NCBI GenBank assembly: GCA_018815245.1
Contig: JAHIXK010000011.1
Location: 434,001 to 498,000 of the forward strand
Origin: Gammaproteobacteria bacterium
GTDB taxonomy: Bacteria; Pseudomonadota; Gammaproteobacteria; Burkholderiales; Burkholderiaceae_B
Length of the DNA: 64,000 bases
Direction of reading: 5' to 3'
Under the pieces are notes generated by a model, which was given only the letters and a program-made list of their open reading frames with translations, was not told where the DNA came from and made no database searches. Of this stretch, positions 15,833 through 27,569 are shown piece after piece. The stretch's first letter is position 1; each line of letters starts with the position of its first letter. Position numbers and translations under genes: made by a program.

Positions 15833-15923
15833 GGAGACGTGGCCGAGTGGTCGAAGGCACTCCCCTGCTAAGGGAGCATACCCCAAAAGGGTATCGGAGG
15901 TTCAAATCCTCTCGTCTCCGCCA
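15833..15923 (+). tRNA. tRNA-Ser (anticodon GCU), CCA encoded
   Basis: A 91-base class II tRNA. The acceptor arms GGAGACG and CGTCTCC pair, followed by discriminator G and an encoded CCA. The anticodon loop CCTGCTAAG carries GCT, reading AGC/AGU serine codons. The long variable arm (CATACCCC AAAA GGGTATC) is typical of tRNA-Ser, and the T arm GAGGTTCAAATCCTC is complete. The gene stays whole at the left junction of an integrated element. Confidence 0.97.
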
Positions 15924-15924
15924 G
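15905..15924 (+). repeat. attL: 20-bp core inside the tRNA-Ser 3' end
   Basis: The last 19 bases of the tRNA, including CCA, plus one more G are repeated exactly at 27550-27569. The bases on both sides of the two copies differ, so the core is 20 bp. The tRNA remains functional on this side. Confidence 0.95.
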
Positions 15925-15969
15925 TACCCTTAATTGCAATGTGCGTCATAGCATTACAATTAGACACAG

Positions 15970-16012
15970 AACCCGCTACAGGCAACAGTCTTGGCGGGTT
16001 TTTTGTTGCCTG
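15970..16012 (+). terminator. Terminator-like hairpin supplied by the element after the tRNA
   Basis: AACCCGC (15970-15976) pairs with GCGGGTT (15994-16000) and is followed by a T run, a reasonable terminator for the tRNA transcript. A second inverted repeat, CAGGCAACA (15979-15987) with TGTTGCCTG (16004-16012), interlocks with the first. The two stems would form a pseudoknot or compete. Confidence 0.6.
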
Positions 16013-16057
16013 TGTGCGTTACATTACGTTGCAGTTCATTTCAATCAATTGCACACA

Positions 16058-16080
16058 AATAAGGGGTCTAATAAGGGGTC
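16058..16080 (+). repeat. Left pair of AATAAGGGGTC repeats (integrase arm-type site candidate)
   Basis: Two direct copies of AATAAGGGGTC at 16058-16068 and 16070-16080 have a 12-base period. A matching pair with the same period and orientation lies inside the right end (27481-27503). Paired short repeats near both att cores are typical of arm sites for tyrosine integrases; the role here is inferred. Confidence 0.65.
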
Positions 16081-16132
16081 CGGAAATAAGGCGATTACAC
16101 TGCGTTTATGTACCTTATTTGCCCGCAAAATC

Positions 16133-17416
16133 ATGGCCAATTCAAAGCAGGTGCGTGACACCTCACGCAATCGTCTTAAAGACCTTCAGATACGCCGGGC
16201 CAAGCCCGATGATTTCCCATTGATTGATGGTGGTGGCCTTCGCCTGGTGTTGAAGGGTTCGGGGTCAAGGACTTGGGTTTATCGTTACAGGTTCAATGGC
16301 AAGGATAGAGAGGCAGGGCTGGGCGTGTACCCAGTCATTGGGGTGGAGCAGGCTCGCCGCATGCGTGATCGTATGGAAGTGCAGCGGGCAGAAGGATTCG
16401 ACCCGCTTCTAGTTCGGCAACAGGAACGTCAACAACAGGTCGTGGTGCAGCAGTTGGCCAAGGCTGAAGCCGTGAAGCAGGCACTTACCCTGGCGGTGGC
16501 ATGCAAGCAGTACCACGAAACCAAGATAGTGCCCACGGCTAAGAACCGCAAGCATGCCGCCCAGTGGCTTAATACGCTGGAAAACCATGTGTTTCCAACG
16601 TTGGGTACCAAGCCAGTGGCGGACATTACCAAGGGTGAGTTACTTGAGGTGGTACAGGCGGTGGTGAACAACACCCCAGAGACAGGCAGGCGGGTGATTC
16701 AACGCCTGATGGTGGTGTTTGATGAGCTGGTGTTCAAAGAGGTGCTGCCCACCAACCCCGTGGCCGCCGTTCAAAGGCAGGTGAAGGCACCATCAAGGGC
16801 CAAGATAGTGAAGCACTTCAATGCCCTGCCATGGGCACAGGTACGCTCGTTCTATCGTGACCTTGAAGCCAGTGACGCAATAGCCGCCAAATGCATTCAG
16901 TGGGTCATCCTGACCGCTTGCCGAACAGGTGAGGCCTTGTCTGTGGTTCCTGATGAACTGGACCTTCAGCGTGGCTTGTGGGTTGTGCCCGCTGAGAAAA
17001 TGAAAGCCAAGCGCCCCCACACTGTCTACCTGTCCACCCAAGCGATTGAACTGGCCACATGCATGCTGGCACTGGGTACGCCATTTCTGTTCCCCAGCCG
17101 GTCTGGTATGCAGTCTTCCTTGTCCAATGCAGCCATGTTGAAGACACTTGAAAGGCTTGGCTACCGAGACCAAACCACTATTCACGGTTTGCGGTCCACC
17201 TTTTCCACCTGGGCCAATGAGCATAACTTCCGCCCTGATGTGGTGGAAGTAAGCCTTGCCCATCAGGAAGGCGACAGGGTACGCAAGGCATACAACCACG
17301 CTGTGTATGTAGAACAGCGGCTTGCCCTGATGCAGCAGTGGGGCGACTTTGTGACCACTGACAAGGTGGATGGTGAACAGGCTGAGGGCGTGCACAAGCT
17401 GGTCAAGAAAGCTTGA
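16133..17416 (+). CDS. int: P4-type tyrosine site-specific integrase
   Basis: A 427-residue integrase with the N-terminal DUF4102 arm-binding domain (LIDGGGLRLVLKGSGSRTWVYRY) and a C-terminal catalytic domain. The catalytic pattern is visible: R in LTACRTGEALSV, HxxR in HGLRSTFSTWA, and the terminal tyrosine in VRKAYNHAVY. It faces away from the attL core, as usual for tRNA-integrated P4-family elements. The frame is open back to 15941, but the family start and context favour the ATG at 16133. Confidence 0.93.
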   Translation: MANSKQVRDTSRNRLKDLQIRRAKPDDFPLIDGGGLRLVLKGSGSRTWVYRYRFNGKDREAGLGVYPVIGVEQARRMRDRMEVQRAEGFDPLLVRQQERQQQVVVQQLAKAEAVKQALTLAVACKQYHETKIVPTAKNRKHAAQWLNTLENHVFPTLGTKPVADITKGELLEVVQAVVNNTPETGRRVIQRLMVVFDELVFKEVLPTNPVAAVQRQVKAPSRAKIVKHFNALPWAQVRSFYRDLEASDAIAAKCIQWVILTACRTGEALSVVPDELDLQRGLWVVPAEKMKAKRPHTVYLSTQAIELATCMLALGTPFLFPSRSGMQSSLSNAAMLKTLERLGYRDQTTIHGLRSTFSTWANEHNFRPDVVEVSLAHQEGDRVRKAYNHAVYVEQRLALMQQWGDFVTTDKVDGEQAEGVHKLVKKA

Positions 17417-18270
17417 GCGTGCCGCCGTGGGGGGCGGGGCAGAGGCCCCACTTGCGCCCACAAAACCAAGTATTGAAGTGGGGGTATGCCGCCAGTTGCC
17501 CAGTTGGTGTGCTGAGGGCTGATGCACGTGGCCGGGCCAGATAACCAGGGGGCGGGGCAAAAGTTAAGGTGGCCAGCTAGGAGACCGCTGCCCCATGTTT
17601 ATTTTGTGCGTCAGAGTTTTGGAGGGGGGGTATAGAAAATGCCGGAAGACTTAAAAAAACTGGGAACAATGGGAACAACCCAGCAAAACAGACGGAAAGC
17701 CGCATGAATAAACGATCCCAATGTTCCCAATATATATAATTTTCTTGGGAACATTTTTGGGAACATGGGAACAAGTTGGGTACTGACTTCAGGTGTTCAT
17801 TGTTCACCTGGTTCAGGTTAGATCCATTGTTCACGGGTCCTTCCGGGCGGTCTGGCCAGTAAGGGTAATGCGAACCCCATCAAATAGCCGGTCACAAAAT
17901 TGAGAAAAGGGTAGTCACCAGTCGCCCATAATTGGTAGTCAATAGCCTGAATTTATTGGCAGTTGAGCAGGCACTAAGCCCCTTTCATTTCATTACATCG
18001 CCCCGATTGTTGGGGTAAAAAAATCGCAAAAGAATCTTTTTTGCGCACCTTCCCGGCGTGTGGAAATTTTGCAAATTTGATTTTCAAATTGGGTAGTCAT
18101 CCAAGTGACCAAACCCCCGCCAATAGGGTTTCAATCCATTACATTGCATTACATTGTGCGTCACTCGTGATAGCCTTAGTTTCCAGACCTAGCGGGACGC
18201 TGCGAACACCTTTGCCCTTCCAAAGGTTGGTCTGTTTCCGACGATTCGAAGAGGCAAGGATTGGCTTGAA
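17417..18270. other. 850-base gene-free region with several repeat types
   Basis: No convincing gene is seen. It holds the GGGAACA cluster (listed separately). It also has two copies of TGTGCGTCA (17605-17613 and 18155-18163; a third copy is at 15940-15948 beside attL) and three copies of GGTAGTCA (17910-17917, 17934-17941, 18092-18099). CATTACA words occur near 17990 and 18137-18155. This looks like a control region for replication and excision; proteins that bind these words are unknown. Confidence 0.6.
17661..17835. repeat. Left GGGAACA iteron cluster, possible replication origin (ori-like)
   Basis: GGGAACA occurs five times forward (starts 17662, 17671, 17747, 17759, 17767) and GTTCCC once inverted (17723-17728), around an AT-rich run (17730-17745). 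Just beyond are TGTTCACC (17801-17808, the inverse of GGTGAACA) and TTGTTCAC (17827-17834). Phage P4 alpha protein binds short GGTGAACAG-type iterons at ori and crr. The word, the mixed orientation, the AT-rich core and the primase-helicase gene make this a likely origin; function is inferred. Confidence 0.6.
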
Positions 18271-19662
18271 ATGCCGCACTGGGAATGGTTTGGGGAAAAT
18301 CTGAGCGGACTGGCGGGTAGAGGTGCTCTGCTCGATGAAAGTTCTTTCGCGTTCGCGGCGGGCCCAGCGACCACGGCTCAACTTCTAGAGTGGGTAGACA
18401 AACCGGATTATGAGTGCCCTGATTTGGCCCGGTTTGACTACCAACAAGTGAAAACCTTGATTGCTGATTGTTTGGCAAATCGTGAAACGGTTAAGCATTT
18501 GTCCCTGCCACCTGTTTTCTGGCGGCTTCTGGACGAAAACCTAATCAAAGCTGAAAACCTTTGGGGTTTTATACTGGACGGACGCATGGGTTGGACTAGG
18601 GAAGCCCTGGCAGAGAATCCTAATCAACATGCAGGGGTGTTCACCACCGCCACACAGCTTCACATTCTGTTCTCGCGTTGGTATGAAAAGCACGGGGATT
18701 CTTTGAATGGAACTGGTGATGACCTTTGGGGTGAGATCCTCGCGGAATTACGTTTCTCGGAAGAAAAATTCGATCAAATTCGCGTGTCCTTTGAGGGGGC
18801 TGAGCAACCCTTCTTTTTGTGGGAAGTTGATTACACGTTCCCACAGCAAAAGTTCTTGTCCACTATCACCATCCAGTCACCTGATATAGCTTCATGGTTC
18901 GTGCTGTTTTCATTGCACAAAGTATTCAGGTTGTTTTGCCTGTTGGCAGCAGAAGTACTGCGTGGCCCTGTTGAATTTGACGATGCAGAGCTTAGTCATT
19001 GCTTGTTTGAGTGTTGGGCTGATATTCAATCGGCCATGGCTGTTGTTCAGTATTGGGATGATCGCTTCTACTCACTATCAGAGACGCTGGAGCAGTTCAA
19101 TCGGCGTGCACAAATATTGGCAAATCAATTCAATTTGTATGAAGTTAGTGGGGATGTAGAAAAGCCAGAGATTCCTTACCAGGCAATTGGAAGAGTCAAA
19201 TTATTAAATTGGTTTTCAAGATCAAATGACTCGGGAATGGTTGAGCTTGATGTGTGGAGGGCGCATTGGGCTGCAATGAACAACGAGCTACCTCCAAGAG
19301 ATCACGGAGAACTTGAGCGCTATTACACTCAATGGTATGAAGGGGCAAAAAAAAGCGCTGCTGACGATTCAGAACTTCTTGAGATTTTGGAACGAAAGTG
19401 TGAAGAACCCAAGGGTGATTTGCCGGGTATCGCTGTTATGCGTTTGCTCTGTAACCCGAAGGGTGCCAGGCTGAGTGATGAGTCGGCGGGGAAGTTACTC
19501 GGGGCTGCGAAAAAGAGGTATGTTCAATTCGAGGATTCGGTTAAAAACTATCGCAAACACTACAACAGCCTGGCTGAGCGCCAGAGGCGATCAAAAGCCC
19601 TTGAGGCAGCAAAAAACATAGCGATAACCAACCTAAAAAAACCCGTTAGCAAATTACGGTAA
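18271..19662 (+). CDS. Hypothetical protein of the satellite element
   Basis: A 463-residue protein I do not recognise. It is rich in Trp, Glu and Leu and has no signal peptide. A hydrophobic stretch near residues 210-235 (SWFVLFSLHKVFRLFCLLAAEVL) looks more like a buried helix than a membrane anchor. The last 90 residues are strongly basic and helical (KLLGAAKKRYVQFEDSVKNYRKHYNSLAERQRRSKALEAAKN is the character of this part, split here by position 380-445). AAGGA lies upstream of the ATG at a long spacing. It stands alone between the origin-like region and the AlpA gene. Confidence 0.7.
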   Translation: MPHWEWFGENLSGLAGRGALLDESSFAFAAGPATTAQLLEWVDKPDYECPDLARFDYQQVKTLIADCLANRETVKHLSLPPVFWRLLDENLIKAENLWGFILDGRMGWTREALAENPNQHAGVFTTATQLHILFSRWYEKHGDSLNGTGDDLWGEILAELRFSEEKFDQIRVSFEGAEQPFFLWEVDYTFPQQKFLSTITIQSPDIASWFVLFSLHKVFRLFCLLAAEVLRGPVEFDDAELSHCLFECWADIQSAMAVVQYWDDRFYSLSETLEQFNRRAQILANQFNLYEVSGDVEKPEIPYQAIGRVKLLNWFSRSNDSGMVELDVWRAHWAAMNNELPPRDHGELERYYTQWYEGAKKSAADDSELLEILERKCEEPKGDLPGIAVMRLLCNPKGARLSDESAGKLLGAAKKRYVQFEDSVKNYRKHYNSLAERQRRSKALEAAKNIAITNLKKPVSKLR

Positions 19663-19774
19663 AGAAGTCAAGGGAAGCGGGACACGCCCACTTTCCAGTT
19701 ACATCAATGAGCGGATTTCTAATAATTCCATGACGCAACAAGTCGTTGCAGTTCAGGTTATTGGAGGTCCATGA

Positions 19775-20080
19775 ATGTCCGAACAAATTTCCTTATCGCC
19801 CACACTTAAGAGTCAGAATTCATCTGTGGGGTCTTCTACACTCGCAGGAAGGGAGCTGCCAGCCCTTCTGCACACCGCCAATCTGTGTTACCACCTAGGG
19901 GTTAGCACAGTTACCATCTGGCGGTGGGTTCGAGACCCTGCTCAAAACTTTCCCAAGCCAATTAAAGTGGGTGAACGAGTACGCATGTGGCGTACAGCGG
20001 AAATTGAGCATTGGCTTAACACCCGCCCCTCGGCTTCACAACCCACAAAGCTGGTTCAAAAGCGAGTCGGCCATGACTGA
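19775..20080 (+). CDS. alpA: AlpA-family DNA-binding regulator
   Basis: A 101-residue protein with a MerR/excisionase-like helix-turn-helix (TANLCYHLGVSTVTIWRWV, then a wing near FPKPIKVGERVRMWRTAEIEHWL). This is the AlpA pattern. AlpA proteins regulate integrase or excision in P4-like elements and act as excisionases in others. A strong GGAGG ribosome site precedes the ATG. It overlaps the next gene by 8 bases, so both are likely translated together. Confidence 0.9.
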   Translation: MSEQISLSPTLKSQNSSVGSSTLAGRELPALLHTANLCYHLGVSTVTIWRWVRDPAQNFPKPIKVGERVRMWRTAEIEHWLNTRPSASQPTKLVQKRVGHD

Positions 20081-20864
20081 AGGCCCCGCCCATATCTCGG
20101 CTGTGTTGATCCAAGCATTTGGCGAAGTTGCCGGGGCACGTGGCCGATTCCGTGGCATACGGTTGAGTGAATTCATTTACCCTGACTTCCAAACCGCCGA
20201 GACCACACTTTTCGGTTACCGCTTACCGTTCGAAGACTGCGGCACGTTCGCCCTGGGCGATGCGGTTCAGGCCCGGCGTTTCGTGGTGCCTGACATGTTG
20301 TTGGCGATGCCTGATAACCCAGCACGTGAGCAGCTTATCAAGGCTATTGCGGGGCTGTATTGTGCGGCATGGTTGGACTGTGCTTACGCAAGCTTTAACA
20401 GGTGCACTGCTGATCGTTCAGACGCTAGTTTGTGGATGCACATCAACGAGCTGCGGCAACTGCTGACACGCTTTGATGATGCTGTGAATTTGTTGACTTC
20501 CTGCCTTGTAGGCAATGAATCCGTGGCCTGTCATTTGCTTGCTTTAAATCTATTGGCTGCTGCCACCGCCAAGGCAATGCGTGAGGCGTTCAACTCGCTG
20601 ATTGAACCCACGCTTATGTATGGAATTGATGGCCTGCGGGCTAGTTTTATTCAAACCAAGTTCACAGCCCAACAGTGGCAAAACCACCTTCATTTGGCAT
20701 GTTGTGCAGCACTTGGCCAAGCTCCGGAGTTTCCACCCTTGCCAATGCTTGAAGGTGATGAAAACAGCGGCTACATCCTTCGCTTATATGATCTTGATGC
20801 AGCTCAGTTGCATGTGTCTTCTGCACCTCAAAATCAACCAGGTGCATTGCGCCATGCTTGCTAA
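20073..20864 (+). CDS. Hypothetical protein coupled to AlpA
   Basis: A 263-residue protein with no family I can name. It is mostly helical and has a cluster of leucine/alanine-rich helices (residues about 95-190) but no clear membrane anchor. Its ATG lies within the end of alpA, which suggests coupled translation. A frame of similar length is often found next to alpA in betaproteobacterial satellites, so it may be a conserved element gene. Confidence 0.75.
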   Translation: MTEGPAHISAVLIQAFGEVAGARGRFRGIRLSEFIYPDFQTAETTLFGYRLPFEDCGTFALGDAVQARRFVVPDMLLAMPDNPAREQLIKAIAGLYCAAWLDCAYASFNRCTADRSDASLWMHINELRQLLTRFDDAVNLLTSCLVGNESVACHLLALNLLAAATAKAMREAFNSLIEPTLMYGIDGLRASFIQTKFTAQQWQNHLHLACCAALGQAPEFPPLPMLEGDENSGYILRLYDLDAAQLHVSSAPQNQPGALRHAC

Positions 20865-20894
20865 GGGTGAACAGATGAAGTACGCTCAAGGCTC

Positions 20895-20916
20895 TCTCAA
20901 AATACATAGGAAAGGC
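20895..20916 (+). repeat. seqA-like repeat
   Basis: This 22-base unit begins TCTCAAAATA and contains TACATAGG (20903-20910) and ends in GGC. A near copy lies at 21139-21160 with a 2-base insertion and a 2-base deletion. The TACATAGG word is the exact reverse complement of the loop of the structured RNA at 21060-21119. Confidence 0.7.
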
Positions 20917-20980
20917 CGTGCTGCCTTTCCAAGCATTGTCCCCTCGGGTGATGGTGTTCGAAAGTCAGCACGGCTTTTTC
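20909..20980 (+). terminator. Two mutually exclusive hairpins, one a terminator
   Basis: Stem 1 is GGAAAGGC (20909-20916) with GCCTTTCC (20923-20930). Stem 2 is GCCGTGCTG (20915-20923) with CAGCACGGC (20966-20974) followed by TTTTT. The first arms overlap, so only one stem can form. This is the geometry of an attenuator or of an antisense-controlled terminator. Confidence 0.65.
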
Positions 20981-21059
20981 GTTCCCCCGTCTCAAAGGCG
21001 GTGGCGTATTCACTCATTCACCATTTTGGTGACCGAGTGACTGTGCTTCCGTTCGTCAA

Positions 21060-21119
21060 TGGGGGTTCGGGTATCCGTAAGGACCCGGCGGCCACCTATG
21101 TAGCCGTGAGAGACCCCCA
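21060..21119 (+). ncRNA. Candidate CI-like antisense RNA (three-way junction)
   Basis: The closing stem TGGGGGT/ACCCCCA (7 perfect pairs) encloses two hairpins. The first (21068-21087) has a GUAA tetraloop with stems CGGG/CCCG and UCC/GGA. The second (21089-21106) is CGGC/GCCG with a 10-base loop holding CCTATGTA. That loop is the reverse complement of TACATAGG in both flanking repeats, one of them covering the ribosome site of the next gene. P4 CI RNA (69 nt) has a seqB loop complementary to flanking seqA and seqC, so this is a likely analogue. Exact ends are not known. Confidence 0.65.
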
Positions 21120-21138
21120 CCCATTCACTTGGGCTATT

Positions 21139-21160
21139 TCTCAAAATATACATAGGAGGC
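21139..21160 (+). repeat. seqC-like repeat overlapping the ribosome site of the next gene
   Basis: This is the second copy of the 20895-20916 unit, with TACATAGG at 21149-21156. The word runs into AGGAGG (21154-21159), the ribosome site of the gene at 21164. Pairing with the 21060-21119 RNA loop would block translation initiation as well as alter the leader structure. Confidence 0.7.
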
Positions 21161-21163
21161 ACT

Positions 21164-21508
21164 ATGCCTGCATTTAATTCAAACCCCTCTACACCCCAGT
21201 GGTTGCGCCCCGGTACCAAGCCGCTTGCTTATTGCCATGGCTTCATGGCTGGCCTGAATCATACCCTTGATGATGATCTGATTCTGCACGTGCTTGGGCC
21301 CGTGTTCGAAGCCACAAACCCGCCCTGTGCGATTGAAGAGCCCGTGGCCAATGCTTCTGTGTTCATGCGTGGCCTGTATGACGGCGTACGCGAATATCAA
21401 CGCCTGATTGCAGACCCGGTTTTGAATCGAAACTGGGCTGATTTCGTGGCTACCGTCGAAGAACTGGTGATGAACAGCGCCGCCACCGCCATGCGCAAGG
21501 AGTGCTGA
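21164..21508 (+). CDS. Small hypothetical protein, first gene of the satellite replication operon
   Basis: A 114-residue protein without a recognised family. It has an excellent ribosome site (AGGAGG) that is part of the seqC-like repeat. By position it corresponds to the first gene controlled by the immunity region in P4, but sequence similarity to a P4 gene cannot be claimed. The next gene starts 3 bases after its stop. Confidence 0.75.
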   Translation: MPAFNSNPSTPQWLRPGTKPLAYCHGFMAGLNHTLDDDLILHVLGPVFEATNPPCAIEEPVANASVFMRGLYDGVREYQRLIADPVLNRNWADFVATVEELVMNSAATAMRKEC

Positions 21509-21511
21509 TTC

Positions 21512-21835
21512 ATGAGCCAAATCACAACGCTCGATTTCATGCCCGAAGGCTCACCAGTGGTTCAAATCATTCCTACCGCCGAGCCTGAGCAAGTCCTGGC
21601 CGAGGCATGCAAACGGCTGCACATGCTCGCAGATAGCTTGGTGATCATGGGCGAAAACCAAACCCTTTTGAATATCGCCCCTGAGTATTCATCCCTGTTC
21701 ATGTCATGGGCTCAGGTGGCCCATGAAGCTGGTGTGATGGTCATGTTTGTCAAGAATGGCGACTTGCGCAAAATCGCAAACAGTGAGGAAAGAAGCGGGT
21801 TCCAAGGTGCCAAGGAAGGAGAGCAACATGTCTGA
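21512..21835 (+). CDS. Small hypothetical protein
   Basis: A 107-residue, mainly helical protein of unknown function. AAGGAG overlaps the end of the previous gene and provides its ribosome site. It overlaps the next gene by 8 bases. Tight packing shows it belongs to the operon leading to the primase-helicase. Confidence 0.72.
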   Translation: MSQITTLDFMPEGSPVVQIIPTAEPEQVLAEACKRLHMLADSLVIMGENQTLLNIAPEYSSLFMSWAQVAHEAGVMVMFVKNGDLRKIANSEERSGFQGAKEGEQHV

Positions 21836-22181
21836 TTCATTCGTTAAGAAAAATGATGTGAGGTCTGCGGATTTCCCCGGTGATGATGCCAATCTGCCCG
21901 GCTACAACGAAAACCCGACCCCCGGCTTGGTGGTCAACATGGATGCAAACGGCCCCGAGCTGTTAAGCGGTGCAATTCATCGACTTAACAACGCTGCTGA
22001 CTTGATGTGGTTGGTGTTGGACCGGGCCAATGGCACTGGTGATGATCACCTTGAAGGCGGCATTGTAGCCATGGGGCGAATGTGTAACGAGGCCTTGCAA
22101 CTGTGTGAGGTGCTGATGGGTCGATTGGAACCGATTAAAAGACCTGTTCAAACTGGCAAGGCGGGCAAAGTGCCCAGGTAG
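21828..22181 (+). CDS. Small hypothetical protein
   Basis: A 117-residue protein with an acidic, Asn/Pro-rich first 45 residues and a helical second half (HRLNNAADLMWLVLDRAN then EALQLCEVLMGRL). The ATG at 21828 follows AGGAAGGAGA; the frame is open to 21747 but the strong ribosome site decides the start. No family recognised. Confidence 0.72.
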   Translation: MSDSFVKKNDVRSADFPGDDANLPGYNENPTPGLVVNMDANGPELLSGAIHRLNNAADLMWLVLDRANGTGDDHLEGGIVAMGRMCNEALQLCEVLMGRLEPIKRPVQTGKAGKVPR

Positions 22182-22255
22182 CTGACTTAACCACCGCCCA
22201 TGTGCTGTGTAGCCCCGTGGCGGTGGCTGGCAATTAAACCCTGAATGAAAATTTT

Positions 22256-22288
22256 TGGCCGCTTCATGGCCAGGGGCAAGTTTTGCCC
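22256..22288 (+). promoter_or_regulatory. Two back-to-back hairpins before the primase ribosome site
   Basis: TGGCC/GGCCA (22256-22260 with 22268-22272) and GGGCAA/TTGCCC (22274-22279 with 22283-22288) form two adjacent stems. They end one base before AAAGG, the ribosome site of the helicase gene. They could set translation or RNA stability for the large replication protein; there is no T run, so a terminator is unlikely. Confidence 0.5.
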
Positions 22289-22300
22289 AAAGGTTTGAGA

Positions 22301-25300
22301 ATGACAAAGAAAATATTTGTTGAACCCACTGATGCAAGCGTTACCGCTGCACTGCGATACATCGACCCGACAGACCAAGACACTTGGGTGAAGGTCGGCA
22401 TGGGTGTGAAACAGGCGCTTGGTGAGGCTGGCTTTTCCGTATGGGATGAATGGTCACGTGGGGCAGACAATTACGCTGAATCTGCTGCCAAAGCCCGCTG
22501 GAAAAGCTTCAAGGCCACTGGGGCAGGTTTGGGTATCGGTACTGTGTTCGACATGGCCAAGGCCGCTGGCTGGGTGCCCAGTGAAGACATGCAGGCCGCA
22601 CCCATTCCACCTGAAGAACGTGAACGGCGTGACCGTGAGCGTAAGGCACTACAGCAAGCAGCCAATGAAGCCCGTGAAGCAAAGGAACGCCAACAGGCCA
22701 TAGAGGCACAGCGGCGTTTCAATGGTGGCTATGCAGATGGCAAAAGCCCGTACCTGGTGCGCAAGATGATTCAAGCCCACGGTGTACGGTTTGTGGACCC
22801 GGCACCCAAGATTGTTGAGTTAATGGGCGAGGCATACACGCTTGGGGACCAATGCATACTGGTGCCACTTACCGATGTGGAAGGGGTTGTCTGGAGCTTG
22901 CAAACCATTTACCCCTGCAAGTGGAGGCCGGGCGATTCACCCATAGCCACCGATAAAATTGTGTTGAAGGAGTCCAGAAAATCGGGCTCCATGCACTGGC
23001 TGGCCAAGCCTGATGAAACTGCACCTGGTTGGATTCTGATTGGTGAAGGCTACGCCACCGCCGCCACGGTTCACGAGGCAACAGGCTTGCCCACGGTGAT
23101 GTGCGTAGACAGTGGCAACATGGCCAAGGTGGCCAAGGCCATACGGGCCAAGTACCCAAACCACAGGCTTATGTTCTGTGCTGATGATGATCAAGCCACC
23201 TTCAAGAAAACTGGCCGCAATCCGGGCCTGAATGCTGCCCACAGTGCCGCCAATGATGTGGGTGGTTACTGGTGCTCACCCCAAGGGCTGGAAGCCACTG
23301 AGAGCGATTTCAACGATTTGCATGCGCGTGCCGGTTTGTCAGTGGTGAAACAGCAGCTTGAAGCGGCTTTGAATGATCCAAAGAACCCAGAACCACCAAC
23401 ACATGGCCAAGGGGCTCAGGATTCGCCAGTGCAGGGCAGTGCCACTGCTGATTCAGCCACCACAGCCACGAATACGGCCACGGGTGGTAATACTGGCACA
23501 CCTGCCACGGCTTCCCCGACCGCAAAAAAGCCACGCAAGCCCAAAACGTATGGTGGACGCTTCAAGGTAAATGCAGAAGGTGTGTTCTATCACGGGGTGG
23601 ATGAAACCGGCGAACCCAAGCGGCCTATTCGCGTGTGCAGTGAGCTGCATGTGCGTGGCCTTACCCGTGACCAGAATGATTCGAGCTGGGGCTTTCTTCT
23701 GGAATGGCCAGACCCATTGGGCAATATGCACACATGGTCAATGCCCCGCCGCCTGCTGGCCGGTGATGGTGCCGCCTACCGTGAGGCGCTTCTCGACATG
23801 GGCCTATCAATTGCACCAGGTGCAGCCCCAAAGAACCTGCTTCACCAATACATTGCCGAGTCCGGTGGAGAGGTGACATTCCGATGCGTTGAACAGGTGG
23901 GCTGGTACGAAAACCAGTTTGTACTTCCAGACACCACCTATGGCCAAGGTGATGAGCAAGTGATTTACCAGTGCGAGGTGCTACGCAAAAACCTGTTTGA
24001 AACCCGTGGCAGTTTGGAAAGTTGGCGGGACAACGTAAGCCGCCTGAGTGCCGGTAACAGCCGCCTGATGTTTGCAATTAGTTGTGCGTTCGCTGGGCCA
24101 CTGCTTAAGCCCACAGGCGTGGAGTCTGGTGGTTTCCATTTCACTGGCAACAGTTCAAGTGGCAAAAGTACCACAATCAATGTGGCCAGTTCGGTATGGG
24201 GTTCACCTGATTTCAAACGCCAATGGCGGGCAACAGACAATGCTTTGGAGGCGGTGGCCGCTGCCCATTCCGACACCTTGTTGGTTCTCGATGAACTTGG
24301 CCAAGCGGATTCCCGCACAGTGGGTGACACTGCTTATATGTTGGCCAACGGGGCAGGCCGAGAACGCATGTCTTCGAAGGTTGCCCTTCGACCTGCATTG
24401 CGCTGGCGTGTGCTGTTCATAAGTACAGGTGAACAGCCCCTGAAGGACAAAATGGCAGAAGTGGGCAAGAAAGCCCATGCTGGCCAAGAACTGCGGGTGG
24501 CTGATATTCCGTTTGCGGTCGAGGGTGGTTCAGGTGGGTTTGAAAGCATTCAAGGTTATGGCCAAGCTGCTGAGTTTGCCAAAGCGTTAAGCAGTGCCGC
24601 TGCCACTGATTTCGGCCACGCAGGCCGGGCATTTGTGCAGAAGGTGTGTGAAGACCCGGCGACCGCTGCGGCTTTGATTGGTGCACATGCAGACAGGCTG
24701 GTGAGTGAATGGGTACCAGCCAAAGCGGTGGGACAGGTGTTCCGGGTTGCCAAGCGGTTCACGATTGCCGCCGCTGCTGGTGAGTATGCCACCGCCATGG
24801 GGCTGACTGACTGGGAACAGGGTGATGCAGAGTGGGCAGCAAAAATTTGTTTTGAGTCGTGGCTGGATAAGCGGGGCACCATTGAACTGTCTGAACACAG
24901 GGACATGATTGAGGCGGTGCGTGCCTTCTTGTCGGTGCATAATGCCCGCTTTCAGTGGTGGCACAGGGTGAACGACGACCACGCCCCGAATGTGTTGCAC
25001 CGCGCCGGGTTCAAGAAGCGGATTTCAGCCAATGGCAAGGCCATTGAAACCCACCAAGATGAATTCCGAGAGCATGGCGACAAGGTTGGCGCTGAAGACA
25101 ATGAGGCCATTACCTTGGAGTACTACGTGTTGCCTACAGTGTTCCGAGATGAGGTGTGCAAAGGGTTCGACCCACGGGCCGTGGCCGCGCTGCTGTATGA
25201 CAAGGGTTACCTTGAGGCGGGTGAAGCTGCCCCTGGCGGTGGTCGTCCACGGTTGGATAAAAAGGTAAGGCTTCCGGGCTTGAGTTTAACAAGGTGCTAC

Positions 25301-25333
25301 GTAATCAAGCCGGAAGTGTTTGGGCAGGAATGA
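22301..25333 (+). CDS. PriCT/TOPRIM/DUF927 primase-helicase (P4 alpha-like)
   Basis: A 1010-residue replication protein. Seen in order: an N-terminal PriCT-type helical domain (DTWVKVGMGVKQALGEAGF); a charged linker; a TOPRIM domain near residues 235-300 (ILIGEGYATAATVHEATG then MFCADDD); a low-complexity Ala/Thr/Pro linker; and a DUF927 ATPase/helicase domain with Walker A GNSSSGKST and Walker B LLVLDELGQ. P4 alpha combines primase, helicase and origin recognition; this protein is a functional counterpart by architecture. I start it at the ATG preceded by AAAGG; six upstream codons are also open. The final about 150 residues probably bind DNA. Confidence 0.9.
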   Translation: MTKKIFVEPTDASVTAALRYIDPTDQDTWVKVGMGVKQALGEAGFSVWDEWSRGADNYAESAAKARWKSFKATGAGLGIGTVFDMAKAAGWVPSEDMQAAPIPPEERERRDRERKALQQAANEAREAKERQQAIEAQRRFNGGYADGKSPYLVRKMIQAHGVRFVDPAPKIVELMGEAYTLGDQCILVPLTDVEGVVWSLQTIYPCKWRPGDSPIATDKIVLKESRKSGSMHWLAKPDETAPGWILIGEGYATAATVHEATGLPTVMCVDSGNMAKVAKAIRAKYPNHRLMFCADDDQATFKKTGRNPGLNAAHSAANDVGGYWCSPQGLEATESDFNDLHARAGLSVVKQQLEAALNDPKNPEPPTHGQGAQDSPVQGSATADSATTATNTATGGNTGTPATASPTAKKPRKPKTYGGRFKVNAEGVFYHGVDETGEPKRPIRVCSELHVRGLTRDQNDSSWGFLLEWPDPLGNMHTWSMPRRLLAGDGAAYREALLDMGLSIAPGAAPKNLLHQYIAESGGEVTFRCVEQVGWYENQFVLPDTTYGQGDEQVIYQCEVLRKNLFETRGSLESWRDNVSRLSAGNSRLMFAISCAFAGPLLKPTGVESGGFHFTGNSSSGKSTTINVASSVWGSPDFKRQWRATDNALEAVAAAHSDTLLVLDELGQADSRTVGDTAYMLANGAGRERMSSKVALRPALRWRVLFISTGEQPLKDKMAEVGKKAHAGQELRVADIPFAVEGGSGGFESIQGYGQAAEFAKALSSAAATDFGHAGRAFVQKVCEDPATAAALIGAHADRLVSEWVPAKAVGQVFRVAKRFTIAAAAGEYATAMGLTDWEQGDAEWAAKICFESWLDKRGTIELSEHRDMIEAVRAFLSVHNARFQWWHRVNDDHAPNVLHRAGFKKRISANGKAIETHQDEFREHGDKVGAEDNEAITLEYYVLPTVFRDEVCKGFDPRAVAALLYDKGYLEAGEAAPGGGRPRLDKKVRLPGLSLTRCYVIKPEVFGQE

Positions 25334-25374
25334 CCCGTGTTTAGGTTTATGGCCATGAACACGGGCAGGTGAGT

Positions 25375-25584
25375 TTAATGGGCCAAAACTGACAAATCCC
25401 ACCAGCTAAGATCAAAGTCAACATAGGTAACGCCATGTTGTTTTTTCAGGTCTCGCTTGATGATCGACTTAAGGTGCTTCGGACTGCGTGCCCAGGCATG
25501 GCCCTTGGTGGTTCGAGATTTACACAACTCTTTTTTACCGATTTGGTAAAGGTCGATTTCGAAGGGGTAGTAAGTTAGGTGCAT
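25375..25584 (-). CDS. Small hypothetical protein of the cargo operon
   Basis: A 69-residue basic protein with a Trp/Asp-rich end (YVDFDLSWWDL). It has a GGAG ribosome site 8 bases before the ATG. It lies 91 bases downstream of the ART-like gene on the same strand and opposite to the rest of the element. Function unknown; possibly a third component of the cargo system or an unrelated small gene. Confidence 0.55.
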   Translation of the reverse strand: MHLTYYPFEIDLYQIGKKELCKSRTTKGHAWARSPKHLKSIIKRDLKKQHGVTYVDFDLSWWDLSVLAH

Positions 25585-25675
25585 GGTTTGCTCCGGTTGT
25601 TGATAACGTCATCACCATGCCATCCTTGGAACGTGAAGAAGAATCAAAGCGAACCAGTACAGGTGGGTGACTCGC

Positions 25676-26266
25676 TTAAATCGCTATGGGGTTGAAGTAG
25701 CCTTTGATGCAATGGGGATTGCGGATACAAATTTGAATGTGATCTTTAGCCCGAAAACCCGCACCTGGGTACAGTTCTTTCCCTTCAACAAACAGGCCTC
25801 TTATGGAGTCGTATTTGTCCAGCTTGTTATCCTCCCGGAATTGATCCAAGAAACGAAACACAAGATCATCCAATGCACGTTTGCCTTTGTCTGGTCCGCC
25901 TGTGTTGAGTGGCAGTTCTAAACCTGCATTCGTGTATGCCGTTTTTAAGCCATTGTAAGCATCTTTCAGGGTGGAGAGCGCCGCAAAATCGAATAGGTTC
26001 AGACACAAACGCAGGTCAATAATGGCACCCACGATAGCAGCGTCTTCAGCGCCATACCTATCAGTTGCCCAATTCAATGCCCGTTCAGGACTGTTTTCCC
26101 AAAAGTACATGCCGGGGCCAAGCCAGTCATGGCCATTTTTTGATTCTTCAAATTTTGGGGATTTACCGCTGATTAGGTTTTTAGCTACTAATTTTCTGCA
26201 CCCATGGAAGCCAAGTACAAAAGAAGAATGGGCCTCATACAGGGCCCAGTTATTTGCAGGTGTCAT
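25676..26266 (-). CDS. Putative ADP-ribosyltransferase-like protein (cargo; toxin or defence candidate)
   Basis: A 196-residue protein. I see an ordered pattern like that of PARP/diphtheria-toxin-type ADP-ribosyltransferases: His21 in VLGFHGC, Tyr54 in WLGPGMYFWENSPERALNWA, and Glu161 in RGLFVEGKELYPGAGF, followed by DHIQICIRNPHCIKGYF. I recall similar proteins of about 200 residues (HGC, WLGxGxYFWE, VEG, HIQIC) spread among bacteria as uncharacterised genes. The ART fold is my inference, not a demonstrated fact. It starts one base after the stop of a small basic protein on the same strand, the layout of a toxin with its partner. It lies in the cargo region, where P4-like satellites often carry anti-phage systems. 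Confidence 0.65.
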   Translation of the reverse strand: MTPANNWALYEAHSSFVLGFHGCRKLVAKNLISGKSPKFEESKNGHDWLGPGMYFWENSPERALNWATDRYGAEDAAIVGAIIDLRLCLNLFDFAALSTLKDAYNGLKTAYTNAGLELPLNTGGPDKGKRALDDLVFRFLDQFREDNKLDKYDSIRGLFVEGKELYPGAGFRAKDHIQICIRNPHCIKGYFNPIAI

Positions 26267-26267
26267 T

Positions 26268-26441
26268 TTACTTGGCCGAATGCAATCGCTTTATAAAAGC
26301 TTCTGCTTTCTCCTTCGTTGAGAATTGGGCCTTGCCATAAGCACGCATGCTGTCTCGCATTTGCTTCATAGCCATATCTCTCTGTTCGAGCAGGCTACCT
26401 GCTGCAAACTTCACTGTTTTAGGTTTTTGAGTTGATGGCAT
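26268..26441 (-). CDS. Small basic protein, possible partner of the ART-like protein
   Basis: A 57-residue protein whose stop lies one base before the start of the ART-like gene. It is rich in Lys, Arg, Met and Gln and likely helical (LLEQRDMAMKQMRDSMRAYG then STKEKAEAFIKRL). AGAAGG precedes the ATG at 26441; an upstream in-frame ATG at 26465 has no ribosome site. The order (small gene first, then a possible toxin) suggests an antitoxin, but no antitoxin family is recognised. Confidence 0.6.
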   Translation of the reverse strand: MPSTQKPKTVKFAAGSLLEQRDMAMKQMRDSMRAYGKAQFSTKEKAEAFIKRLHSAK

Positions 26442-26668
26442 TGCAGGCCTTCTAACTGGAATCATTCAAGTGTCACTTTATAACAGGTTCTCTGTTTTTT
26501 TGCCACGCATTGCAGTGGTTTGCATCGATGTGCACGTTAATGCAGCCTGTGAATATGGCTGTGGTTGGGTTGTTCATGTGGTTGGTTCCCTCCAATAGGG
26601 CAAGCCCCATTGATTGGTTGGCACTTTGCCCCTGTGGTCTATCAAAAATATGCTTTACTAGACTCTAT

Positions 26669-26681
26669 TGATAGGCTATCA
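26669..26681. promoter_or_regulatory. 13-bp palindrome upstream of the serine recombinase
   Basis: TGATAG-G-CTATCA is a perfect inverted repeat about 35 bases before the recombinase start, in an AT-rich segment. Resolvases bind imperfect palindromes in res sites next to their genes, so this may be a recombinase subsite or an operator. Confidence 0.45.
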
Positions 26682-26715
26682 TTAAAGCCTTGATCCCAGT
26701 GATAAAGGCACCATC

Positions 26716-27285
26716 ATGAAAATTGGTTACGCACGAACAAGTACCTCCGACCAAGTAGCCGGTATTGAAAAACAGGTAAGTGACCTGAACGCCTATGGCT
26801 GTGACCTGGTGATTGCTGAACATGTATCGGCGGTGGCCGGGGAGCGCCCCGAGTTTGACCGTGCCTTGGCCATGCTAAGGGCAGGGGATAGCTTGGTGGT
26901 AACAACCATGAGCCGCCTGTGTCGTGCCACCAAAGACCTTGGCCACATTCAGGAACGCTTAGAGGCGGTTGGTGCTGGGTTGGAAATTCTCGACCTGAAG
27001 CTGGATACAGGCACAGCCATTGGCCGAATGACGTTGACGATCATTGCATCCGTAGCCCAAATGGAACGTGAGCTGATGAAAGAGCGCCAATCCGTTGGGA
27101 TAGCCAAGGCAAAAGAGCAGGGCAAGTACAAGGGCCGTAAGCCCACCGCCCAGGCGAAAGCCGCTGAAGTGCTACGGTTGAAGGCCTCCGGGGCATTGAC
27201 CAATGACGAAATAGCCACGCTGACTGGTATTGGTGTTGCCTCTGTGTATCGAATTTTGAAAGCCGCTGAGCCAGTCAGTGCATGA
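26716..27285 (+). CDS. Serine recombinase (resolvase/invertase family)
   Basis: A 189-residue small serine recombinase. The catalytic serine is in GYARTSTSDQ near residue 10; the active-site arginines are in LSRLCRAT-like and MERELMKERQS segments; a C-terminal helix-turn-helix (TNDEIATLTGIGVASVYRIL) binds DNA. It is the last gene before attR and would be an extra recombination activity besides the tyrosine integrase. It may resolve multimers or invert a segment; no partner site is proven. Confidence 0.92.
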   Translation: MKIGYARTSTSDQVAGIEKQVSDLNAYGCDLVIAEHVSAVAGERPEFDRALAMLRAGDSLVVTTMSRLCRATKDLGHIQERLEAVGAGLEILDLKLDTGTAIGRMTLTIIASVAQMERELMKERQSVGIAKAKEQGKYKGRKPTAQAKAAEVLRLKASGALTNDEIATLTGIGVASVYRILKAAEPVSA

Positions 27286-27287
27286 AT

Positions 27288-27400
27288 TTGTTCCCAGCAT
27301 TTGCTAACGTTGGGAACAATTTCAACCCATCTTGGGAACAGCTAAACGTAAGCCAGTAAACGGTTTCAACGATTTGTTCCCAATGTTCCCGTGTTCCCAA
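27288..27400. repeat. Right GGGAACA iteron cluster (crr-like)
   Basis: The same word as in the left cluster occurs here six times. Forward copies of GGGAACA start at 27312 and 27334; inverted TGTTCCC copies lie near 27289, 27375, 27384 and 27392. The cluster is 9.6 kb from the left one and just inside attR. P4 replication needs ori and a second site, crr, a few kb away with the same iterons, which is the parallel I draw. Confidence 0.6.
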
Positions 27401-27480
27401 GGAAAAAATAGACACGCCGGGTTTTGTTGACTCAGTGAAGGCGGTGAATGACTACTCGGTCCGTCAATCCATTGCGCTGG

Positions 27481-27503
27481 AATAAGGGGTCAGATAAGGG
27501 GTC
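27481..27503 (+). repeat. Right pair of (A/G)ATAAGGGGTC repeats
   Basis: AATAAGGGGTC (27481-27491) and GATAAGGGGTC (27493-27503) have a 12-base period, the same period and orientation as the pair next to attL. The pair ends 46 bases before the attR core. Candidate integrase arm-type sites. A short GGCT-gaa-AGCC hairpin with TTTT (27519-27533) follows and may end the recombinase transcript. Confidence 0.65.
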
Positions 27504-27549
27504 TGAGTAACGGCTAATGGCTGAAAGCCTTTTCTGGCGGTGGTGGCTG

Positions 27550-27569
27550 AATCCTCTCGTCTCCGCCAG
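27550..27569 (+). repeat. attR: 20-bp copy of the tRNA-Ser 3' end
   Basis: This is an exact copy of 15905-15924. Only the tRNA 3' part is present, so there is no second tRNA. It marks the right border of the element; host sequence resumes with the displaced terminator at 27574. Confidence 0.95.

Follow-up and report, generated by a model that had tools for sequence, protein, structure and literature searches.

A c4-2 antisense RNA locus laid out like the phage P4 immunity region in a probable satellite island of Burkholderiales

We analysed a 64-kb stretch of DNA (hereafter the window) and found a locus that is very probably an antisense immunity or attenuation switch on the plan of phage P4. 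Its RNA belongs to the c4-2 family and would control the replication operon of a P4-like integrative element. The RNA structure, its two-part complementarity to the flanks, the joint change of RNA and flanks across loci, a terminator-type hairpin and the operon order are all found in the sequence. The working of the locus would follow P4 by analogy, a reading strongly supported by the co-change of RNA and tags.

Read along the + strand, positions 20893-21164 hold, in order, TCTCTCA, TACATAGG, a hairpin with TTTTT, about 80 nt, a three-way junction, TTTCTCA, TACATAGG running into AGGAGG, and ATG. The features of the locus are as follows.

20858-20886, + strand: weak promoter candidate TTGCTA-17-TACGCT, scoring 7/12, a score that 21% of its shuffles reach
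20893-20899, + strand: b-box of seqA, TCTCTCA, predicted to pair with the junction strand
20903-20910, + strand: a-box of seqA, TACATAGG, predicted partner of the loop
20909-20979, + strand: terminator-type hairpin (by folding) immediately behind seqA, with a T-run at 20975-20979 and corresponding to P4 t1
21055-21130, + strand: c4-2 antisense RNA with its three-way junction at 21060-21119 (RF02944 at 41.6 bits, fold, covariation)
21095-21102, + strand: loop CCTATGTA, the specificity arm, complement of both a-boxes
21107-21113, + strand: junction strand TGAGAGA, the second pairing arm, exact complement of the first b-box and with one G-U to the second
21137-21159, + strand: seqC, TTTCTCA and TACATAGG into the AGGAGG ribosome site (by sequence and duplex energy)

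The preliminary description had proposed two similar repeats around a compact three-way junction with a loop complementary to both, the second repeat overlapping a ribosome site, and this outline was borne out. The repeats lie at 20893-20911 and 21139-21157 and are 84% alike, with a 2-nt insertion preceding the second TACATAGG. The loop is exactly complementary to both copies (20903-20910 and 21149-21156), and neither TACATAGG nor its complement CCTATGTA occurs anywhere else in the 64-kb window. The second copy runs into AGGAGG, and the downstream tag thereby overlaps the ribosome site in front of the operon's first gene, TACATAGGAGG being followed by ATG 21164. The junction folds at -29.6 kcal/mol (z -2.75, 0/200 shuffles as stable). 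Its GUAA tetraloop and 10-base loop are present as described, but the predicted fold adds two pairs inside the larger loop. This fold excess shrinks with added flank (21055-21130, z -2.02, 9/200 shuffles; 21040-21135, z -0.76, 40/200), and the case therefore rests on comparison. In duplex predictions, the antisense segment 21088-21114 paired with the first flank at -31.0 kcal/mol (0/2000 single-base shuffles as low), the seqA pairing of 8 plus 7 pairs lying inside this duplex, and with the second flank at -24.9 kcal/mol (1/2000). The fit of the junction strand to the other half of each repeat, the terminator hairpin after the first repeat and the tRNA-Ser island go beyond the preliminary description.

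To assign the RNA to a family, we used Rfam models, a covariance search having been suggested as a check. RF02944 (c4-2) matched 21055-21130 on the + strand at 41.6 bits against a cut-off of 41, a marginal score with all 79 model positions covered. C4 (RF01695), the family that P4 CI fits, gave no match to the window RNA at its gathering score or up to E = 1. Both families share one Rfam clan. Judged by sequence and structure, the RNA is a member of c4-2, which had been catalogued before. In the search output c4-2 bears only the type 'Gene; sRNA'; the tags, terminator and operon are additions of the present analysis. Among the papers found in our literature search the Rfam 15 paper alone names the family, the original description of c4-2 lying outside that search; c4-2 stands there in a table of improved structures (PMC11701678).

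When 18 different c4-2 loci were run against Rfam's own model, 2 of them (the window and L016) passed its cut-off. Searches with RF02944 yielded 4 matching genomes at E 0.001, including the window's own, among 199 relatives (1 above the cut-off), 6 among 399 genomes of the order (1 above the cut-off) and only the own genome among 369 of the class, in overlapping genome sets and under strict filters that lose weak matches. Pattern scans contributed further loci from viral contigs and four genome contigs; two of 12 pattern-scan stretches (L014 and L020) showed no junction on visual inspection and were discarded. A nucleotide search with 20600-21520 gave no match in phages and a single 33-bp match, to c4-2, in plasmids, and blastn of the RNA against phages with E up to 10 returned nothing better than E 8.

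We aligned 20 loci (alignment A1) and found that 97% of cells are paired, versus 37-47% for slid structures. Two-sided changes that keep the pair occur at 14 of the 20 base pairs, a number reached by 0/500 shuffles in a control that ignores kinship, and whichever of five measures was used, A1 was matched by 0/500 shuffles. The three-way junction is thus conserved by covariation in this alignment. From these loci we built the model R1, which knows the RNA only and nothing of the flanks. R1 matched 7/399 genomes of the order, 8/83 of the family of genome G316 and 3/349 of the phylum, from which 11 further loci were obtained, and it did not match P4. The comparison therefore covers 31 loci, 20 in the first set and 11 held out, counted after removal of duplicates (L013 and L017, which carry the RNA of L012; L018, identical to L010; L026, identical to L003; L051, identical to L023; and L040-L045, L047 and L049).

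RNA and flanks change together across these loci. In the first set, the longest Watson-Crick word between an RNA and its own seqA averaged 6.85 nt, against 4.61 nt with the flanks of other loci, and for seqC the means were 6.40 and 4.21 nt; 0/50,000 permutations reached the own value in either case. Words of at least 6 nt were present in seqA for 18/20 own pairs versus 78/380 with other loci's flanks, and in seqC for 18/20 versus 35/380. The held-out loci behaved likewise, with such words in seqC for 11/11 (0/50,000 permutations) and in seqA for 7/11 (1/50,000). Start codons were set by hand in both counts, and since many loci are related, the counts are not independent events; L053 and L055, L048 and L058, and L021 and L023 share loops. 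With wide flank windows the signal in the 20 loci was weaker, the own means still beating 20,000/20,000 permutations and the own flank being best or tied in 12 and 9 of 20 loci and strictly best in 2 and 2.

The loop is thus complementary to the upstream and the downstream tag in most loci, whereas the preliminary description had named a loop changing without its flanks as evidence against the scheme. In the first set, L016 and L024 miss the 6-nt mark in seqA by exact pairs, a G-U match being visible by eye, and L006 and L011 miss it in seqC. The held-out misses in seqA are L046, L052, L057 and L058. Inspection of L046 and L057 shows the word beyond the automatic window or at its margin, and in L052 seqA is weak and the seqC word is the junction box rather than the loop. 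In L058 (G896:C52), on a short contig, the seqA word CGTATAG mismatches the RNA loop while seqC fits, as in a mosaic or decayed locus. A search of the host genome for trans targets, in which the spacer was fixed at 4 nt, returned the complement of the RNA gene itself and otherwise 9 and 10 sites, against 11 and 8 for the reversed-pattern control; the tags themselves have spacings of 3 and 5, so that the search covered a part of the conceivable targets.

The second pairing arm gave a separate comparison. The junction strand after the second hairpin reads TAGGA in 15 of 30 loci and GAGAG in 13, and the segment before the a-box reads TCCTA in 15/15 TAGGA loci and TCTCTC or CTCTCT in 13/13 GAGAG loci, with no swaps. 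Junction type and upstream box therefore agree in all 28 loci of the two main types, a segment located through a hand-given a-box and types that may partly follow descent. By eye, L011 adds TGAGC with GCTCA and L059 adds GTAGC with GCTAC. Since the junction types match the upstream boxes and are never crossed, the pairing would be two-part and antiparallel. L059 (G1200, of the same phylum but outside the order) is a c4-2-like locus whose downstream gene is weakly Rha/Ant-like.

Operators commonly take the form of direct repeats around a regulatory region, and the two repeats here could in principle be DNA sites for a protein, with the complementarity of the loop incidental. We consider this highly improbable, because RNA and flanks co-change across loci, the RNA stems covary, a second RNA segment fits the other half of each repeat, and loop and boxes stand in antiparallel register.

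Next to the antisense reading, natural changes of the key were evaluated in an island of a genome of the same genus (G002), which has related genes, an integrase 94% identical and a tRNA beside the integrase. Over the leader (20864-21163), window and G002 are identical at 256 positions, mismatched at 42 and gapped at 4; for the flanking genes, over the stretches compared, the figures are 231/73/8 and 287/58/8 (identical/mismatch/gap). The loop is CCTATGTA in the window and TCCTTTGAC in G002, and both tags differ together with it. The RNA is nearly unchanged outside the specificity hairpin, and the terminator hairpin differs at few places, the pair U20922-A20967 of the window corresponding to C-G in G002. 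Many differences are also found in the spacer that separates the terminator from the RNA.

Different keys also occur side by side. Genome G316 carries four c4-2 loci. With loops and tags cut by hand, the words that join a loop to its own tags are 7-14 nt long, and none longer than 5 nt joins it to the tags of another locus. The viral contig IMGVR_UViG_2616644830_000001 (30.8 kb) holds two c4-2 loci (L015 and L019) with different loops, each before a similar 60-aa gene. We also scanned with Pfam 20 downstream proteins besides the window's, mostly long ones, from the 31 loci. Antirepressor-type domains were found in 12 of the 20 (KilA-N 5, Bro-N 3, Rha 3, AntA 1); the others comprised one S24-like protein, one HTH_17 protein, one weak Rha match and five without a domain. 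It is likely that c4-2 serves phages of betaproteobacteria and P4-like islands as a recurring code of immunity. Its two-part keys would be exchangeable and would have to match the tags at terminator and ribosome site; orthogonal keys would coexist in one cell, as with the four of G316, and related islands, such as those of the window and G002, would switch key by altering loop and both tags jointly.

An intrinsic-type terminator between the upstream tag and the RNA was found in the window by sequence and fold (20910-20985, z -7.18). A hairpin with a T-run follows the a-box in 29/30 loci, L052 being the exception, and the same loose test succeeded at 92/600 control positions. A sigma-70-like promoter of at least 8/12 lies upstream in 27/30 loci, against 13% of shuffles; the window reaches only 7/12, and a stricter scan upstream of its seqA found no promoter. 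L016 was left out of the promoter, hairpin and junction-type counts (hence 30 of 31 loci) because its a-box was not recognised, and the a-boxes in these counts were chosen by hand, which favours finding other parts nearby. The automatic terminator scripts chose wrong hairpins in several loci; for the word counts in the first 20 loci the terminator position was set by hand in L008, L012, L015 and L021. In the hairpin count, the hairpin recorded for L004, L005, L009, L019 and L025 differs from the obvious one.

In this locus the first 60 nt can form an alternative hairpin (20909-20930, -13.2 kcal/mol), which takes up the end of the a-box and some of the first arm of the terminator. Pairing of the RNA with seqA would be expected to disfavour it, making it a possible antiterminator in the folding model. 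With seqA forced single-stranded, the terminator hairpin still forms, at -39.4 versus -43.4 kcal/mol.

We propose the following course of events, modelled on the anatomy of the locus and on P4. The leader transcript would carry seqA, the terminator, the c4-2 RNA and seqC, followed by the replication operon, and the c4-2 RNA would be cut free of it. Its loop and junction strand would then pair with nascent seqA, favouring termination before the operon and limiting the RNA's own supply, and pairing with seqC would cover the ribosome site of gene 21164. A resident element would in this way shut down the primase operon of any incoming element that shares its tags, as well as its own; between elements whose loops differ, heteroimmunity would be expected.

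In the fold of the whole leader (20886-21180), loop and junction strand pair with seqC in cis, so a free RNA is not demanded by the sequence. The c4-2 segment might accordingly be a leader switch that is never freed and hides the ribosome site of gene 21164 by pairing with seqC in its own transcript. We regard this as unlikely: it leaves unexplained why seqA, which lies ahead of the terminator and roughly 185 nt 5' to the loop, retains the complement in most loci, as well as a compact RNA with two-sided changes. Moreover, P4 CI is reported to be processed from a primary transcript (PMC4825925). A freed antisense RNA thus remains the preferred reading.

The locus lies in an island that is a probable satellite, judging by its gene content. 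Its features are as follows.

15833-15923: tRNA-Ser, ending in a 20-bp sequence that recurs at 27550
15905-27569, no strand assigned: integrated element between 20-bp direct repeats at 15905-15924 (the tRNA-Ser end) and 27550-27569
15941-17416, + strand: tyrosine integrase, start codon uncertain (Pfam PF13356, PF00589, PF22022)
19775-20080, + strand: AlpA-like regulator (Pfam PF05930, 2.2e-07)
21164-21508, + strand: first gene of the putatively controlled operon, an ORF of 114 aa with a relative 87% identical in G002
21512-21835 and 21828-22181, + strand: two further small operon genes (ORFs) with relatives in G002, the second cut there by the contig end
22301-25333, + strand: primase/helicase with PriCT-2, Toprim and DUF927 domain matches, counterpart of P4 alpha

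The 20-bp end of tRNA-Ser recurs exactly at 27550, so that att-like repeats frame the element, with 11,645 bp from the start of one to the start of the other. The island runs from the integrase through a 463-aa gene, AlpA, another gene, the RNA locus, three small genes and the primase-helicase to an opposite-strand gene and a resolvase, and thus combines a tRNA-site integrase, AlpA and an alpha-like primase. Gene 21164 stands where P4 has its first gene behind cI; it gave no Pfam, PHROG or NCBIfam match at E 0.01, and a search in plasmids did not find it. Neither this gene nor the primase had a match when viral contigs were scanned at the protein level. In G002 (L003:459-1040, - strand) the counterparts of genes 21164 and 21512 read as one 194-aa frame. 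Gene 25676-26266 (- strand), between primase and resolvase, has weak PADLOC PD-T4-9_A matches (4.5e-07) and a match to PHROG 14664, and may be defence cargo. Three more islands with integrase and primase-type genes carry c4-2 (L061, L064 and L065). In the first, from G221, the Rfam int-alpA RNA (RF02996) lies just behind the integrase (L061:5888-5956). Another of the five stretches compared, L062, was rejected as a relative island, having no relative of the window's proteins.

It is quite possible, if not what we expect, that the RNA works as described in an integrative element that is no satellite and replicates or spreads another way. Among the ten island proteins scanned, no relative of capsid, terminase, sid, delta, psu or other structural proteins was found, and the P2 major capsid family PF05125, the one family searched, is absent from the host genome. 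However, the run from immunity RNA through small genes to primase is that of P4, and the run of integrase, orf, AlpA, small genes and primase is that of phiAH14b, which is reported as a probable satellite found packed in phage capsids (PMC4936722). We therefore keep to a satellite as the probable identity of the island.

These results propose a testable function for a catalogued RNA family. They also suggest that immunity exerted by RNA without a protein, of which P1 and P4 are the best-known cases, operates in mobile elements of Burkholderiales and Neisseriaceae, c4-2 loci being found in records named as a Burkholderiales MAG, Azonexus, Aquitalea and Eikenella. Naturally differing pairs of RNA and tag would let sequence predict which elements coexist or exclude each other.

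The P4 plan put forward in the preliminary description holds part by part (tag, terminator, RNA, second tag, small gene, primase operon), but the RNA profile is c4-2 and not C4. In P4 (X51522), the C4 model matches the CI RNA at 74.9 bits, and the segment ahead of CI scores as isrK. In the P4 sequence itself, GTGAGAA and AATTCACAGG are followed by GACGCGCCACGCGTC-TTTTTTT, the CI RNA, GTGAGAA and TTCACAGGAGG, and ATG. Both systems thus have a two-part tag, a hairpin with a T-run, an antisense RNA, a two-part tag over a ribosome site, small genes and alpha or a primase, whereas the window RNA matches c4-2 and P4 CI matches C4. Briani and colleagues (2000) reportedly placed t1 between the promoter and cI, found that it needs CI and seqA, and assigned it to CI autoregulation. 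CI pairing with seqA and seqC is described as causing termination in the paper cited above (PMC4825925).

Phages P1 and P7 differ from the window in the RNA family, which is C4 there and c4-2 here. In P1, C4 controls ant, and the antirepressor-type genes behind c4-2 (12 of the 20 scanned) recall this arrangement. The C4 RNA of P1 and P7 is likewise a two-arm antisense RNA (a' and b') that covers a ribosome site, and its processing by RNase P at a GGW motif has been described (PMC5320573).

Related primases occur in the Pseudomonas phage records phiAH14b and vB_Pae_U10. They gave the top two matches of the window primase among phage records, phiAH14b leading with 69% of the query at 34% identity, and both carry an antisense RNA between the integrase and a related primase, as the window does. 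In both records this RNA is C4, not c4-2. In the window's island and the others that carry c4-2, this RNA thus seems to stand in for C4.
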